From Minwuiaceae bacterium (GTDB taxonomy: Bacteria; Pseudomonadota; Alphaproteobacteria; Minwuiales; Minwuiaceae), in assembly GCA_028278525.1 (NCBI GenBank), contig JANQEE010000013.1, positions 248,001 to 312,000 of the forward strand: a stretch of DNA of 64,000 bases, given 5' to 3'. Below are positions 33,636 to 41,935 of the stretch, piece after piece (within the stretch, counting starts at the first letter, position 1; each line of letters begins with the position of its first letter). Made by a program: the position numbers and the translations under genes. A model generated the notes under the pieces. That model was not told where the DNA came from, searched no databases, and was given only the letters and a program-made list of their open reading frames with translations.

Positions 33636-35648
33636 TCAGTCGATCCCGATCTCCGACAGCGCCGACCGGAACATCTTCTCCACGTCCGGCGTCAGGTTCG
33701 TATAGCCGGTGATGAAATGGTCCCATCGGTAACCTGGCAGAATCCGGTGAATATGGCCAAGCGCCGTGTCGCGGTCTTCCATCCGGCCGGCCCGGTGGCA
33801 GGCTATGGCGGCAATCGCCTGTGTCTGAACATAGTCGGGGTGCAGCCGGGAGGCCTGCATGGCCAGGTCGGCGGCGGGCTCGAAATCGCTCAGCCTAAAC
33901 AGCGAAATCGCCTGCGTCGCCAGCATGGCGAACCGCGTCGGGTCGATCGGGCTTAGTCCTTTGGCCAGTTCGGTGTGGTCGATCGATTCCTGCGGGTCGC
34001 CGAACTGGCACTTGGCGAAGCCGAGCGAATAGTGCCCCGGTGCGAAATTCGGATCGATCTGCACGCTGTGTTCGATCGAGGCGACGGCGCCCGCCGTCTC
34101 CCCGCCCAGTAGCAGCGCGCGGCCGAACACATAATGGCCGACCGGATCGCTGGCATTGAGCCGCAGGCTCTGGCGCGCCGTTGCCAGCGCCTGCTCCGCC
34201 TCTTCGGCCGGCCGGTCGCTGTAACGTGCGAACACCCGCTGGAAGTGCGTGATGGAGAGGCCCGCATAACCGCGCGCAAAGCTCGGGTCCAGTGCGACCG
34301 ACCGGGCGAACAGTCCGTGCGCGATGTCGTTGTCCTCGCGGTTGGCGCGATAGGCGTGCCACAGGCCGCGGTGAAACGCCGTCCAGGCGTCCATCTCGGC
34401 CGGATCGAATTTCAGCGCGCGCCGGATCTCGGCGGCCAGGACTTCAATGCCGACCGCGACCGCCACGTTGCGGGCGATGTGGTCGCGCGCCTCGAAGATG
34501 TCGTCGGCAACGCAATCGATCTTGTCCGACCAGCAAATGGTTCCCGTTGGAACGTCGCTAAGCTCGACGGTCACCCGCAGCCTGGTGCCGTCCCGTTCGA
34601 CGGCTCCGGACAGGGCATAGCGCGCGCTCAGTCGTGTTTCCACCGCCCCGACGTCGGCCTCCCGCCCGCGCAACTGGAACGTGGAACCGCGCGCGATGAC
34701 GAACAGCGAACGCGAAAGCGAGAGCTGCGTGATTATGTCCTGCGCGATGGCGTCGCCGACCGCGCCGTCGGCCGACGCCTCGTCGCGGCAAAAGAACGGC
34801 AGCACCGCGACGGACGGCCTGGGATCGATAACCCGCGCCTCGGGCGTCTCGGGCTTTACGGTCTCCGGCGCGGCCGGTGCGTCCGTCGCCATGGCCGGCA
34901 TGCCGACGGGCCGCCCGATCTCCCCGGCAACCTTGTCAACCGCGGCGGTCGGAACGGCCTCCGCCTTGAACAGCGCCCGGGCCAGCTCGATCTGGCGCGC
35001 CGCTTCGTCTGCGCGGCCGGACCGGTACAGCAGCCGCACAAAACCCGCGCGGTCGTCGCCGTCCAACGGATTTACATCGCACAACGCGCGCGCCGTCTGA
35101 ACGGCTTTGTCCGGGTCGCCTCCCTGCGCCGACACAAGATGCCTTAAGACCGAAACCCGCGCCTCGCGAACTGTCTGGCGTTCGGCGGCCAGCCACGCTT
35201 CGAAATCGTGACAGTCCGGCAACGTCAGTCCGTCCAGCAAACCGCCCGCCGTGGCCAGCGCCATCCGCTCGTCTTCCGGCACAGCGTCCGGATCGCGCAC
35301 CGCCTGCTGCAGCCGGTGGACATCCAGCGCGTCGGCCGAGGCTTCCAGGCCCACCGTTTGCCGGTCCGTTATCAGCCGAACGTCCGCCGCATCGCCGACA
35401 ACGGCGCGCAGCCGCGACAGGCTCCAGCGCAACGCGGCCCGCGGATCGTCGGGGACTTCCCACAGCAGCGCGCACAGGCGCTGCCGGGTACTGGGTCGGC
35501 CGTTCAGCGCGAGATAGGCGAGCAGCGCTCGGGTCTTGCGCGATCGTGGCAGATCCAGCGGCACGCCGCCCCGCTCCACGGCCACCCCACCCAGCAGCCT
35601 GATCGTCAGGCCGCCGCCATTGCCCGGCATCGCATCCGATCGCTGCAT
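33636..35648 (-). CDS. SARP/BTAD regulator with TolB-like and TPR regions
   Basis: A 670-residue protein. About 14-105 is a winged helix (KTRALLAYLALNG, AALRWSLSRLRAV), 110-250 a BTAD domain, 290-410 a TolB-like/cyclase-associated beta domain (SVAVLPFFC, DIITQLSLSRSLFVIARGS) and 420-660 a run of TPR-like repeats (ALDPSFARGYAGLSITH, QIDPNFAPGHYSLGFAK). No cyclase domain. The N-terminal third is clearly paralogous to the protein at 20657-22711. I chose ATG 35648, since translation before it is not family-like. It is probably a transcription regulator with a C-terminal sensing scaffold; targets are unknown. Confidence 0.82.
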   Translation of the reverse strand: MQRSDAMPGNGGGLTIRLLGGVAVERGGVPLDLPRSRKTRALLAYLALNGRPSTRQRLCALLWEVPDDPRAALRWSLSRLRAVVGDAADVRLITDRQTVGLEASADALDVHRLQQAVRDPDAVPEDERMALATAGGLLDGLTLPDCHDFEAWLAAERQTVREARVSVLRHLVSAQGGDPDKAVQTARALCDVNPLDGDDRAGFVRLLYRSGRADEAARQIELARALFKAEAVPTAAVDKVAGEIGRPVGMPAMATDAPAAPETVKPETPEARVIDPRPSVAVLPFFCRDEASADGAVGDAIAQDIITQLSLSRSLFVIARGSTFQLRGREADVGAVETRLSARYALSGAVERDGTRLRVTVELSDVPTGTICWSDKIDCVADDIFEARDHIARNVAVAVGIEVLAAEIRRALKFDPAEMDAWTAFHRGLWHAYRANREDNDIAHGLFARSVALDPSFARGYAGLSITHFQRVFARYSDRPAEEAEQALATARQSLRLNASDPVGHYVFGRALLLGGETAGAVASIEHSVQIDPNFAPGHYSLGFAKCQFGDPQESIDHTELAKGLSPIDPTRFAMLATQAISLFRLSDFEPAADLAMQASRLHPDYVQTQAIAAIACHRAGRMEDRDTALGHIHRILPGYRWDHFITGYTNLTPDVEKMFRSALSEIGID

Positions 35649-35993
35649 TCGAATTTCACCACCGGTTTCCGACCGGGAAACCTCAATCCCGGCCGGTTTG
35701 CACGATAACCCCGGCGTCAACGCCCCGCAAACGCCATATCGCCGCCCTTTCCCCACTATTGCGGGGGGCTTGAACGTATCGGTTCAAGGGCAGGGCTAAG
35801 GAAAAACCAAGCGTGAAAACGCCGAAAGAGGCGCGAGCGGATCGATGAATGCGACGGGCGGTACCGGCCGCCGCGTCCGTGTCGCAAACCGAACCGTCAG
35901 GCGGTCTTGCGACGACGCCGCGCCATGGAGGAAGAGTGCTGAGGCATTCGCCCACCCATGGCGCACAAGGCGCCGGGAGGCCGAACGGCGGCG
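35649..35993. other. Intergenic region with duplicated gene-end remnant and a palindrome
   Basis: This 345-bp stretch has no convincing gene. It holds an exact 7-bp inverted repeat CTTGAAC-N6-GTTCAAG at 35769-35788, upstream of the SARP/BTAD gene, and the second copy of the 26-bp repeat (35918-35943) that derives from the end of a YafY-type gene. The rest shows no recognised structure. Confidence 0.65.
35918..35943 (+). repeat. 26-bp direct repeat, copy 2 (orphan remnant)
   Basis: Identical to 33313-33338, but here it has no YafY-type gene upstream. It is followed 51 bp later by the stop end of an intact small beta-rich gene, mirroring the layout around copy 1. Confidence 0.95.
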
Positions 35994-36344
35994 CTATTCC
36001 CGCCAATAGATAACCGTGTTGTAGACAACGAAGTCGTCTTGGTCCCCTCTTTCAATTCTGAACGTGTTGTCCCCCTTTTTGAGGAAGCCCTCCGGAATGG
36101 ATTCCATCATCAATTGCGCCGCCTGTGACGCCCCGGGCGCTGGGGACAAAAACCAATTCGGCATTTGTTCGTTGTTGATAAAGGCTTTATGCGACAACGA
36201 GTTCACGCCCGCGACCTGGAGCAACAGCAATGCTGGACCCACGGGCTCAAGATCCCCCTCTATGCCAAACACCGTCTCAACGACGGGATTTGCTTCGGTA
36301 AATGTATGGTTGATGGGAATCCAGTTAAAATCCGATTGGGTCAT
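35994..36344 (-). CDS. Small beta-rich protein of unknown function, family copy A
   Basis: A 116-residue acidic protein with no signal peptide. The order of strands SDFNWIPINHTFTE, LLLLQVAGVNSL, KAFINNEQMPNWFL, GDNTFRIERG and VVYNTVIYWRE suggests a compact beta-sandwich. Copy B (36577-36927) aligns end to end with identical length; the pseudogene at 33395 is a third member. I do not recognise the family. The start is ATG 36344 with GAGGAAC upstream. Base composition is lower in G+C than the chromosomal average of the window. Confidence 0.75.
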   Translation of the reverse strand: MTQSDFNWIPINHTFTEANPVVETVFGIEGDLEPVGPALLLLQVAGVNSLSHKAFINNEQMPNWFLSPAPGASQAAQLMMESIPEGFLKKGDNTFRIERGDQDDFVVYNTVIYWRE

Positions 36345-36576
36345 GATTGTTCCTCGATTCACGTGATGAAAACGATGACCGACGGTCGCCATGCGTTACG
36401 GTGCCCCATCGGGCAATCTCCACTGGGACGACATCGGACACAGTAAGATCGTCGCCGATTTCCATCCGGCCATGCAGGATCGGTATTGTGGCGAATACGC
36501 TCCCCTACAGCGGCCGTGGACCGACAAACTTTGGGCAGCAAACGTGCTCGCGCCCGAGCCTGTTCCCGACCCAAGC

Positions 36577-36927
36577 CTATTCGCGCCAGTGAATGGCCAC
36601 GCCATGGACGGTGAAATCGTCGGCTGCTCCTCTGTCGATCCTGATTGTGTTCGTTCCCTTCTTGAGATAGCCGTCCGGAATATGGTCCATCCACAACTGC
36701 GACGCGCCTGACCCTCCGGGGGCCACGGGCAAGTCCCAGCCCGGCAGGGGTTCGTTGTTGATAAAGATTTTGTGGGCGTACGACCCCACGCCGGAAAACT
36801 GGATAAGCAGGAAAGCGTCATCCAGCGGATTCAGGTTTCCTTCGATGGGGAACTCCATCGTTTTCGAAGGCTCTGGTTCCGTGAACGTGTGAAAGATGGG
36901 AACCCAGTTAAAGTCGGATCGGGCCAT
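36577..36927 (-). CDS. Small beta-rich protein of unknown function, family copy B
   Basis: A 116-residue paralogue of copy A. Shared anchors are SDFNWVPIFHTFTE at the N-terminus, FLLIQFSGVGS, HKIFINNEPLPGW, LKKGTNTIRIDRG and a C-terminal HWRE. The INNE-LPGW loop and the terminal WRE are the most conserved parts. The start is ATG 36927 with GGAGAC upstream. Copy A lies 232 bp downstream, so the two may share a transcript or have separate promoters. It is likely cytoplasmic, since no export signal is visible. Function unknown. Confidence 0.75.
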   Translation of the reverse strand: MARSDFNWVPIFHTFTEPEPSKTMEFPIEGNLNPLDDAFLLIQFSGVGSYAHKIFINNEPLPGWDLPVAPGGSGASQLWMDHIPDGYLKKGTNTIRIDRGAADDFTVHGVAIHWRE

Positions 36928-37152
36928 GACTACGTCTCCAGTGCGATTGATAACACGCGCCAATCAACGATGTGTATGCGTTACGCTTCTACTAAGCATT
37001 CAGATTGCCTAGCAGTACGTCATTCGTATGTTTGATTAAGTAAAGCCAGGATTAACGAACGTGAACCCGAGAAACCGCACAAGGAAAATGCAGCTTTGCA
37101 GTGTACGCGGAGGGGATCTATGAAAACGAAACGCGAGGGCCGGGCCGAAGTC

Positions 37153-38764: not shown

Positions 38765-39092
38765 ATCACTTAGCTCATTCTGACCCGTATTGTCTTGGCT
38801 TCGAAAACTTCACACAGTGAGTAGCCAATGAGTTCCAGCCTGGAACTATTGTATACCGCAATCAGTATTAAAGCGCCGGCAGTCACATGCGCCCTACAAT
38901 TTAGAACTTGTGACATTTACAAGGGCGGCAATCTCTTCAAACCTACACAAGGCAAATAGACTACGTCTGAATACCAAACGCACTTTACTCGTTTGAGATT
39001 CTGTGTACAGTTTATCGCCCTGCGTGCAAGTCAGAATGCGCAATATAACAATACCTCGCCACTCTTGAGGACGAGGAATTAGGGGAAACACC
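38765..39092. other. AT-richer intergenic region at the left edge of the low-GC island
   Basis: A 328-bp stretch with no convincing gene; a 66-codon minus-strand frame at 38894 lacks any ribosome site or recognisable content. Base composition falls from GC-rich to AT-rich near 38780. It contains the left member (38865-38882) of an imperfect 18-bp repeat also found at 41918-41935. Confidence 0.65.
38865..38882 (+). repeat. Imperfect 18-bp direct repeat, left copy (island boundary candidate)
   Basis: GTATTA followed by a GCGCCGGC-containing half; it matches 41918-41935 at 15 of 18 positions in the same orientation. The pair brackets the AT-rich three-gene island. Confidence 0.4.
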
Positions 39093-40082
39093 ATGCGTCA
39101 GCTAGTCCTGATTCTCGCCCTTATGATGTCTAGCTGCGCCCCGGCGGTATTCAATACTGAAGTAACCGAGTTTCGAACAGCTGTGGACCAAACCGTTGAT
39201 GTTGTGGCGCAGTATAGTGTTGCAGAAAAAGATGGTAGGCTAGCCGGTCTAGCAGCAGAAATTTCTAGAAAAGAACAACTGGTTCGATTCTCATTAGAAT
39301 GCCACTTGGAGAAAAAAGACCATCCAACCAGAGTACAATTTGACTCCCAAGACTGCCAACTTACAAGACAGAGCATCGATAGCAACCAGGTAGTTGATCA
39401 ACGCATCGAAATCCCTGTGATTGAACGTGGAGATGTTAGCAAACTAGTTTCGGCAATCGCATCATATGCGAAAGGACTAAACGATATTACGAGAACAACT
39501 GATAGCGTTTCGATCCTGGAAAACTTGGATAGCCTTCGCACTGGCATAAGAGACCTTGCACATGAGGTTGAAGAACCGGTTCCGGAATCTGCCCTCCGCT
39601 TCCCTAATGTATTAGTTGTATTGTTTCAAAAAATACTTCAATTGCACTTCAGCCAATTGCGCTATGACTATCTTTCAGAGGCCGTGAAGATTGCTGATCC
39701 TTGGATCACAAAAAACTTGAGTGCCCGTGCTTCCCAGCTAGATCAACTACACAATCGTGCGACCCGGCTGAGGTTCGATCAACTCGAGCTTCTATTGAAC
39801 GGCCTGAACGAAGAGCCGATTGAGTATCGCCGAGTAGAACTGTTGACCAGAGTGCTAAACGAAAAAGCAGCACTGGATAAATTGCTTCGGGGTGACCCGC
39901 CAAGCCTACTAATCAATGGATTGATAGAAGCTCATAACCGCCTTGCCAAAAGCATTGATGATCCAAGCAGCAGTGATCCCGGAAGTGACATCAGTAACAA
40001 AATAGCCTCATTCCAGGCGATAAGAAACTTTGCCAACGAGGTTAGAGAAATTCAATCTGCGTTGGCGGCGCTAAACAAATGA
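39093..40082 (+). CDS. Putative lipoprotein of unknown function, helix-rich (island gene 1)
   Basis: A 329-residue protein. The N-terminus MRQLVLILALMMSSC is a short lipoprotein signal with Cys15 as the acylation site; the -1 to -3 residues are acceptable though not ideal. The mature protein is mostly helical and charged, with coiled-coil-like stretches (about 195-250, NLSARASQLDQLHNRATRLR). No family recognised. G+C is low: 25 of 60 bases in the line at 39661. The start is ATG 39093 with AGGGGAAA upstream. Its TGA overlaps the next gene's ATG as ATGA, so translation is coupled. Confidence 0.75.
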   Translation: MRQLVLILALMMSSCAPAVFNTEVTEFRTAVDQTVDVVAQYSVAEKDGRLAGLAAEISRKEQLVRFSLECHLEKKDHPTRVQFDSQDCQLTRQSIDSNQVVDQRIEIPVIERGDVSKLVSAIASYAKGLNDITRTTDSVSILENLDSLRTGIRDLAHEVEEPVPESALRFPNVLVVLFQKILQLHFSQLRYDYLSEAVKIADPWITKNLSARASQLDQLHNRATRLRFDQLELLLNGLNEEPIEYRRVELLTRVLNEKAALDKLLRGDPPSLLINGLIEAHNRLAKSIDDPSSSDPGSDISNKIASFQAIRNFANEVREIQSALAALNK

Positions 40083-40747
40083 CCACAATTCTTGACCAAA
40101 AAAAGCAAATCGCCGAAATACAATCGATTGAAGTACAAACCTCGAATGCACAAGGAGCTGCTGCTATAGAGGTGTCAAAACTTCGGATAGAGAAAGCAAA
40201 AATTGTCGCAACGTTAGCCGGGATTCTACTCAGTTTCGCAATTGGGTTAGCCACATGGCATGTGGAGCAAGAGAAGCAACGAAAATTTGAGGTGAACAGC
40301 GCGCTAGTCAAGCTTCTTGAAAAACTCTCAAGGACCGAGACCCCAAATGAGCAACAAATAGCCGCAGCAGCGATGCCTCTCTACGGCCAACAGTCAACAA
40401 ATATTTTGATCGCAAGTTTGAGGATAGTAGATGAGGCTGAGGTACTTAGGGAAGTACAGTGGTCGTTAGGCGTCGTTTCCAAGGAGTCAGAGCAAAGTCG
40501 AACAAGCGTATTGAGACAACTCCTGTTTGCAGCGAAAGAAATTGTAAAGCTTCCATCAACTTCTCAACATAAAGGTATGACGGCTCATTTAAATGCCTAT
40601 CTCGATACAATCGAACTTGTTTACGCAGTATGGAACCCAAACTGGCGAGAAGAAGAGATCTTGGACCGTCCCGTCGGCCGAGAACTTAGCAGGTTATGCG
40701 AGGTGCTTGGTAGCGAGAATAGTAGAGAGAGTCTTTGTGGCGCATAG
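40079..40747 (+). CDS. Membrane-anchored coiled-coil protein of unknown function (island gene 2)
   Basis: A 222-residue protein. About 1-41 is an N-terminal amphipathic/coiled-coil segment, 42-60 one hydrophobic helix (IVATLAGILLSFAIGLATW), and 62-222 a helical domain rich in Leu, Gln and Glu with no signature I know. Topology is likely N-in with the large domain outside, or the reverse. ATG 40079 overlaps the lipoprotein stop by four bases. It is followed by the secreted-protein gene after 2 bases. The tight packing marks the three as one transcription unit. Confidence 0.75.
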   Translation: MTTILDQKKQIAEIQSIEVQTSNAQGAAAIEVSKLRIEKAKIVATLAGILLSFAIGLATWHVEQEKQRKFEVNSALVKLLEKLSRTETPNEQQIAAAAMPLYGQQSTNILIASLRIVDEAEVLREVQWSLGVVSKESEQSRTSVLRQLLFAAKEIVKLPSTSQHKGMTAHLNAYLDTIELVYAVWNPNWREEEILDRPVGRELSRLCEVLGSENSRESLCGA

Positions 40748-40749
40748 AT

Positions 40750-41790
40750 ATGATTTTTCGCGGAATTTTCTGCCCGATCACTGTGGCACTAAGCTTGACG
40801 CTTTCCTTTTCCCCTGTTTGTTGGGCAAAAGACGATACAGCAGTAGTCGATCCTGGTTTCGAGAGCGAGCACATAAACGTAGGCGGAGCGCTGACCAAGG
40901 CTATCACATTCACAGATAAGTTCGTTGACACGCTCGACAACGTATCTCAATCAAGCATGGCAATTGTTTATGAAAACAGAGAAGCAATAAAGCACCAGAT
41001 AAAAACAAAAATAGATATCGATGACGATAAAGAGGCAAAAAGACTCTTAGAAAATGGCATCTCTATTGTTGCAAAGATTGAGACCTTTTGGGAGGATATC
41101 GATGAACCAAAAATTACAGCAAATATTTATGATCTAAAATCTCAATCTTACAAGAAAATCCTCACATGGGATAAGCGTTTTGAGAGAGGAAATTCAACCA
41201 TCCTCAAAAAGCGTGCGGAAAATCTTGCTCATTGGATTGGTTCCTTGCTACCTCACACGAAATATGAGCGCAGGATGAGGGTATGCATTAATATGATAGG
41301 GTCGCCGCCGGATGGATTTCTAACGAAGAATAAAGACAGAATATTGGAGTCCTTTTTTAGTGAATTTGGTGATTTTTGGGAAAAAATTGAGCCAGAAAAA
41401 GAAGGTTTAACAGTGTTAATCCCCAACAAAGAAGAAGTTGAAAAATGCAGCAGAAAATCATTTGATCGCGATAAAGTAGAATATTTGACAAGCATTAACC
41501 TCCATGAATTAAGGGGAAGTCGCGTACAATTGACAATAACTGTTACAAAAAGGGGAAGATACTTCGTAGGGTTCGGAAAACCAGCAGAAAAAGTAGTCTT
41601 TCCGAAAGTGCGAATAGCTGATGGGAAGTGGAAATCAGACGCGGGTCTCAAAAATCTCATTCGCTGGATTGCCAAGTGTTTTCATGCCGGTTTTCAAGAA
41701 AACGTGGTTCGAGTAGGGGTTGGCAATTTCGCTGAAGTGGCTAGGTCCATAGCGGAATATGGCGGTGTTTGCAGTGTAAGCTCCGCCTAA
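40750..41790 (+). CDS. Secreted protein of unknown function (island gene 3)
   Basis: A 346-residue protein. A signal peptide covers about 1-27 (GIFCPITVALSLTLSFSPVCWA). The mature part has an N-terminal helical, charged region (about 45-160) and a C-terminal part with predicted strands around GSRVQLTITVTKRGRYFVGFG and four cysteines. No family recognised. I chose ATG 40750, two bases after the upstream stop; a TTG at 40735 inside the upstream gene is unlikely. The line at 41041 has only 23 of 60 G+C. All three island proteins appear to face the envelope. Confidence 0.75.
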   Translation: MIFRGIFCPITVALSLTLSFSPVCWAKDDTAVVDPGFESEHINVGGALTKAITFTDKFVDTLDNVSQSSMAIVYENREAIKHQIKTKIDIDDDKEAKRLLENGISIVAKIETFWEDIDEPKITANIYDLKSQSYKKILTWDKRFERGNSTILKKRAENLAHWIGSLLPHTKYERRMRVCINMIGSPPDGFLTKNKDRILESFFSEFGDFWEKIEPEKEGLTVLIPNKEEVEKCSRKSFDRDKVEYLTSINLHELRGSRVQLTITVTKRGRYFVGFGKPAEKVVFPKVRIADGKWKSDAGLKNLIRWIAKCFHAGFQENVVRVGVGNFAEVARSIAEYGGVCSVSSA

Positions 41791-41917
41791 AGAGTTTGCC
41801 GTTGGGATGTAGTTGCCCTGCCGCAGCTTTTGTGGGGGCAAGCGCCACTATATCTAGGTTGGAGGGTTTAGGCTGCGTGGTCACGCTCGCTCTCCTCAGT
41901 CCTTTCTTACACTATCT

Positions 41918-41935
41918 GTATTAGTGCGCCGGCGG
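41918..41935 (+). repeat. Imperfect 18-bp direct repeat, right copy (island boundary candidate)
   Basis: Matches 38865-38882 at 15 of 18 positions. GC-rich DNA resumes directly after it. Confidence 0.4.

Follow-up and report, generated by a model that had tools for sequence, protein, structure and literature searches.

A three-gene operon, probably acquired horizontally, with a divergent lipoprotein of an undescribed proteobacterial family

What do three closely packed genes in a sharply low-G+C tract of a Minwuiaceae genome encode, and do they form a unit that is kept together elsewhere? The tract lies in the window, by which we mean the whole stretch of 64,000 nucleotides that was analysed (positions 248,001 to 312,000 of contig JANQEE010000013.1, assembly GCA_028278525.1).

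The low-G+C operon and its surroundings

In window coordinates, the locus has the following features:

About 38760 to about 41900 (both edges approximate), no strand: low-G+C tract with the operon, from 100-base and 2.7-kb G+C scans (z = -9.5)
39081 to 39085, + strand: AGGGG, read from the sequence as the likely Shine-Dalgarno site of gene 1
39093 to 40082, + strand: gene 1, encoding the predicted 329-aa lipoprotein P0001, from its lipobox, conserved residues and a leave-one-out profile
40079 to 40747, + strand: gene 2, encoding P0002, a predicted 222-aa single-pass membrane protein with a charged helical N-terminus, from hydropathy
40750 to 41790, + strand: gene 3, encoding P0003, 346 aa, with a signal-like N-terminus and presumed to be exported, from hydropathy

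The open reading frames given by an earlier sequence-only reading, which had described three tightly packed genes on the plus strand, are exact. Genes 1 and 2 share a 4-bp ATGA overlap and genes 2 and 3 are separated by 2 bp, an arrangement that implies translational coupling. The abrupt drop in G+C described in the same reading is borne out by counting: the trio has a G+C content of 44.0% (gene 1, 46.0%; gene 2, 45.6%; gene 3, 41.2%), compared with 65.3% in the rest of the window. The z-score is set against the 555 other overlapping 2.7-kb stretches of the window (mean 65.3%, sd 2.2%), the lowest of which has a G+C content of 59.9%. Likewise, GC3 is 0.40-0.43 in the trio genes and approximately 0.75-0.90 in most neighbouring genes.

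The genes on either side are ordinary chromosome genes. Upstream are a lysine-decarboxylase/SLOG-like protein and a small membrane protein, the gene for which sits in other surroundings in genomes of the same order; downstream are an SDR, an APH-type phosphotransferase, and a beta-lactamase-fold protein. No tRNA was found within the window, in agreement with the earlier reading, and no Rfam match was found around the trio. No flanking repeats of note were seen at the trio, where the repeats are short and chance-like. Two further observations concern the region upstream. Approximately 2 kb from the trio are two tandem paralogous DUF7383 genes (35994-36392 and 36577-36963, both on the minus strand), where the local G+C is lowered (55%). 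Beyond these, at 33636-35756 on the minus strand, is a gene for a SARP/AfsR-like regulator of 706 aa, in which, as judged by eye, the middle is TolB-like and the C-terminus TPR-like.

Gene 1 and its lipoprotein family

None of the three products has a significant family match in Pfam, NCBIfam, PHROG, or PADLOC, and the known anti-phage defence models of PADLOC give no family for any of them at E ≤ 1. The earlier statement that the cassette has no recognisable family thus stands for these collections; it does not hold for gene 1, which belongs to an unnamed family of its own. P0001 has a signal sequence with the lipobox LMMSSC (Cys15) and further cysteines at positions 70 and 88. The first search, with the single P0001 sequence against 385 genomes of the class, returned three weak matches (E of about 4e-5 per genome), in open reading frames that are of similar size or are cut by a contig end, and profiles built from these three led to further relatives. 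Searches for P0001 relatives in plasmids, phages, and viral contigs gave none; tblastn with the family member at locus L053 led to a relative in Photobacterium sp. GJ3, on a plasmid record of 1.69 Mb (NZ_CP073579.1; locus L055). In all, 16 relatives from Alpha- and Gammaproteobacteria were kept. Two lipoprotein matches, in genomes G244 (locus L040) and G700 (locus L052), covered only about 70 and about 45 N-terminal positions of the profile, respectively, and were not counted.

Identity to P0001 is 13-20% (13 relatives measured). Nevertheless, a profile made without P0001 scores P0001 over the whole protein at E = 3.6e-26 (89 bits), in a search that included 1,970 decoy ORFs, the best of which reached 2.8e-6. 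When the other members were left out one at a time, every one was recovered at E ≤ 4.9e-14. Across the 17 proteins, and in P0001 numbering, Tyr125 and Leu129 are invariant (17/17 each), Cys15 and His281 are present in 16, Leu284 in 15, Cys88 in 14, and Cys70 in 13. P0001 itself keeps all family features, namely the lipobox Cys15, the Cys70/Cys88 pair, Tyr125, Leu129, and His281. These data show that gene 1, as judged from its sequence, encodes a divergent member of an undescribed family of predicted proteobacterial lipoproteins. The Cys70/Cys88 pair of the family could form a disulfide, and hence the domain that carries it would be periplasmic. The family has no match by sequence among solved structures, and the single-sequence AlphaFold model of P0001 is poor (pLDDT 37.2), giving a hint that the protein may be helical. 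In PADLOC, neither the family lipoproteins nor their partners (see below) matched at a credible score.

The family is rare. Matches were found in 12 of the 385 class genomes, including the genome studied here, and one of the 12 (G244) was rejected on inspection. Two bacterial families have it in 4/17 and 1/14 of their genomes, and outside the class two convincing matches were found in a phylum sample of 398. The genes that flank the family loci vary. This rare and patchy occurrence, together with the varying flanks, indicates that the family behaves like accessory cassettes. Several relatives are not distinct in composition from their surroundings, suggesting that the family has not always been recently acquired. 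For the operon in the window, composition, sporadic distribution, and variable flanks support the earlier proposal that it was acquired horizontally.

The conserved pair and the different genes behind gene 1 in the window

Directly downstream of 15 of the 16 relatives, and on the same strand, lies a gene for a small coiled-coil-like protein, helical and 102-140 aa long; the distance from the lipoprotein gene to this partner gene ranges from -11 to +59. All 15 partners are devoid of cysteine, and hydropathy gives no clear signal sequence or membrane segment in any of them. Leave-one-out profiles recovered 12 of the 15 partners at E < 1e-3; those at L016, L038, and L054 were not recovered in this way and are assigned by position and type. 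The one relative that has no partner (L035) has a kinase-TPR gene upstream. The conserved unit is, therefore, a pair consisting of a lipoprotein and a small, soluble, cysteine-free coiled-coil protein. Literature searches found no description of such a pair. This unannotated family of lipoproteins keeps a near-constant partner in two classes of Proteobacteria, which makes the pair testable as one unit.

In the window, the slot behind gene 1 is filled by P0002 rather than by the family partner. P0002 contains two cysteines and one hydrophobic stretch (residues ~42-60), which follows its charged N-terminus. The idea that P0002 is the usual partner in diverged form was rejected, as the partner profile misses it and the alignment has no conserved columns. 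P0003 begins with a signal-like hydrophobic segment. The envelope direction that the sequence-only reading had assigned to all three products is thus backed by sequence signals.

Relatives of P0002 or P0003 were found neither in the 385 class genomes, nor in plasmids or viral contigs, nor among the neighbourhood ORFs beside any member of the lipoprotein family; a search of phages, made with P0003, also gave none. Peptide-pattern scans of the genome collection, a method that reaches close relatives only, gave nothing. Apparent relatives of P0003 at L007 and L017 (within a TruB-like gene) and at L008 (a 93-aa frame) were taken as chance. P0003 has no match by sequence to solved structures, and its single-sequence AlphaFold model is poor (pLDDT 34.5); it hints at a helical N-terminal half and an alpha/beta C-terminal half. 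The strand-helix order of the latter recalls TolB N-terminal-like domains, which is only a lead, and searches of Pfam and PDB at relaxed thresholds did not back it.

The trio was expected to be a conserved unit of three co-evolved parts. This was not found: the check for co-occurrence in other genomes was negative, with homologues of gene 1 standing without genes 2 and 3 at 16/16 loci, and it is the pair that is conserved, not the trio. To date, the trio has been seen only in the genome studied here, and the window carries a variant of the pair with a different, membrane-anchored coiled-coil protein and an added third gene. The window copy suggests that the partner slot is open to another protein, as in a modular accessory complex.

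Possible roles and the closest known systems

The neighbours of the relatives offer a weak hint of a role for the family in conflict. At L015, a class-3 lipase gene (Lipase_3) lies beside the pair on the opposite strand, approximately 160 bp away. A class-3 lipase gene at L034 (8448-9548) lies 9 bp downstream of the partner and is split by an in-frame TAA; its longer, unbroken relative is the one at L015. At L054 (3289-6456), the family lipoprotein stands beside a Pepco-domain protein, a patatin that PADLOC scores as a phospholipase effector, a multi-pass membrane protein, and a coiled-coil protein, a run that is perhaps a conflict operon yet to be described. A lipase or patatin is thus close by at 3/16 loci, an association that was noticed after the fact, and a lipase of this kind is absent from 7 of the 12 genomes checked. 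The genome studied here has a related lipase on another contig, far from the trio and without the pair; no lipase or other effector gene adjoins the trio itself. Glycosyltransferase-8-like genes lie beside the pair at L018 (6435-7319), L019 (6722-7564), and L039 (8411-9292), with a Pfam match for L039 only. No secretion-system genes were recognised in the locus stretches read.

Our best explanation as a whole, which is tentative, is that the trio is an accessory operon, gained by horizontal transfer, for an envelope complex built around a lipoprotein, perhaps one engaged in conflict with phages or competitors. The products of the three coupled genes would meet in the envelope, their locations being suggested by sequence signals and their physical interaction by the coupling of the genes. 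Lipoprotein 1 would be lipid-anchored in the periplasm, protein 2 would have its anchor in the inner membrane, a short coiled coil in the cytoplasm, and a larger domain in the periplasm, and protein 3 would be exported to join them. With less confidence, the family may take part in envelope-centred conflict, either phage defence or competition between bacteria. More speculatively, the lipoprotein could act as a sensor or guard that the coiled-coil protein links to an effector, which in a few relatives might be the nearby lipase or patatin; the trio of the window has no adjoining effector. Several points count against this explanation. Genes 2 and 3 come from one genome, so that a shared function is beyond co-occurrence testing, and the usual partner has no signal while the lipoprotein would be periplasmic, so that direct contact between them is not obvious. 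The infrequent association with lipases, noticed after the fact, and the lack of credible PADLOC matches among the family lipoproteins and partners weigh against it as well. A more specific version, which we consider unlikely, is that of a mobile envelope conflict system of an undescribed class, in which a periplasmic lipoprotein is combined with interchangeable coiled-coil links (mostly soluble, membrane-anchored here) and optional lipid-degrading effectors. If the phospholipase link is true, a membrane-attacking system would have a periplasmic lipoprotein as its sensor or guard.

The envelope signals in all of the trio products would also suit an operon for ordinary envelope maintenance or a surface structure (adhesion, envelope stress, or polymer export), carried as niche cargo with no role in conflict, and the glycosyltransferase-like gene beside three relatives is in keeping with this. 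However, the family is rare and patchy, and none of the three proteins falls in a recognised family for export, adhesion, or stress response, which makes this explanation somewhat doubtful. It is distinctly improbable that the trio is unrelated cargo that landed together by chance, with gene 1 a degenerate member that has lost its partner. The ATGA overlap and 2-bp gap imply coupling, the composition of the trio is uniform, all three products bear envelope signals, and gene 1 retains the conserved residues of its family, against which stand the lack of relatives for genes 2 and 3 and the single occurrence of the trio.

An immunity or self-protection cassette would make the lipoproteins periplasmic guards against lipid-degrading effectors, present in most genomes as orphan immunity. 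Such a role leaves the near-constant coiled-coil partner unexplained and is at odds with a pair that mostly occurs without a lipase, as well as with the lack of recognised secretion-system genes; it draws on the Lipase_3 or patatin genes beside 3/16 relatives, the cysteine pair of the lipoprotein, and the patchy distribution of the family. We regard it, too, as distinctly improbable. The tentative explanation by an accessory envelope complex is the one that we prefer.

Type VI phospholipases are countered by lipoprotein immunity partners. The family resembles such effector and immunity pairs in that a lipoprotein lies near a class-3 lipase or patatin in 3/16 relatives; it differs in that its loci have no recognised secretion genes, its coiled-coil partner is constant, and there is no lipase by the window copy. 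Small domains that co-occur with hydrolase effectors have been described in conflict systems (Kaur et al., 2020; PMC7159879), in a text that does not name Pepco. The relative at L054, whose run includes Pepco-domain and patatin genes, is similar to these systems, whereas no NTPase, peptidase, or Trypco domain was recognised in or beside the trio. A further comparison is with the pair of lipoprotein and small coiled-coil protein found at the 16 loci, for instance at L055. On the one hand, the window differs from it by an unrelated, membrane-anchored second gene, an added third gene, and a strongly foreign composition; on the other hand, it shares with it a homologous gene 1 and a tightly coupled second gene.
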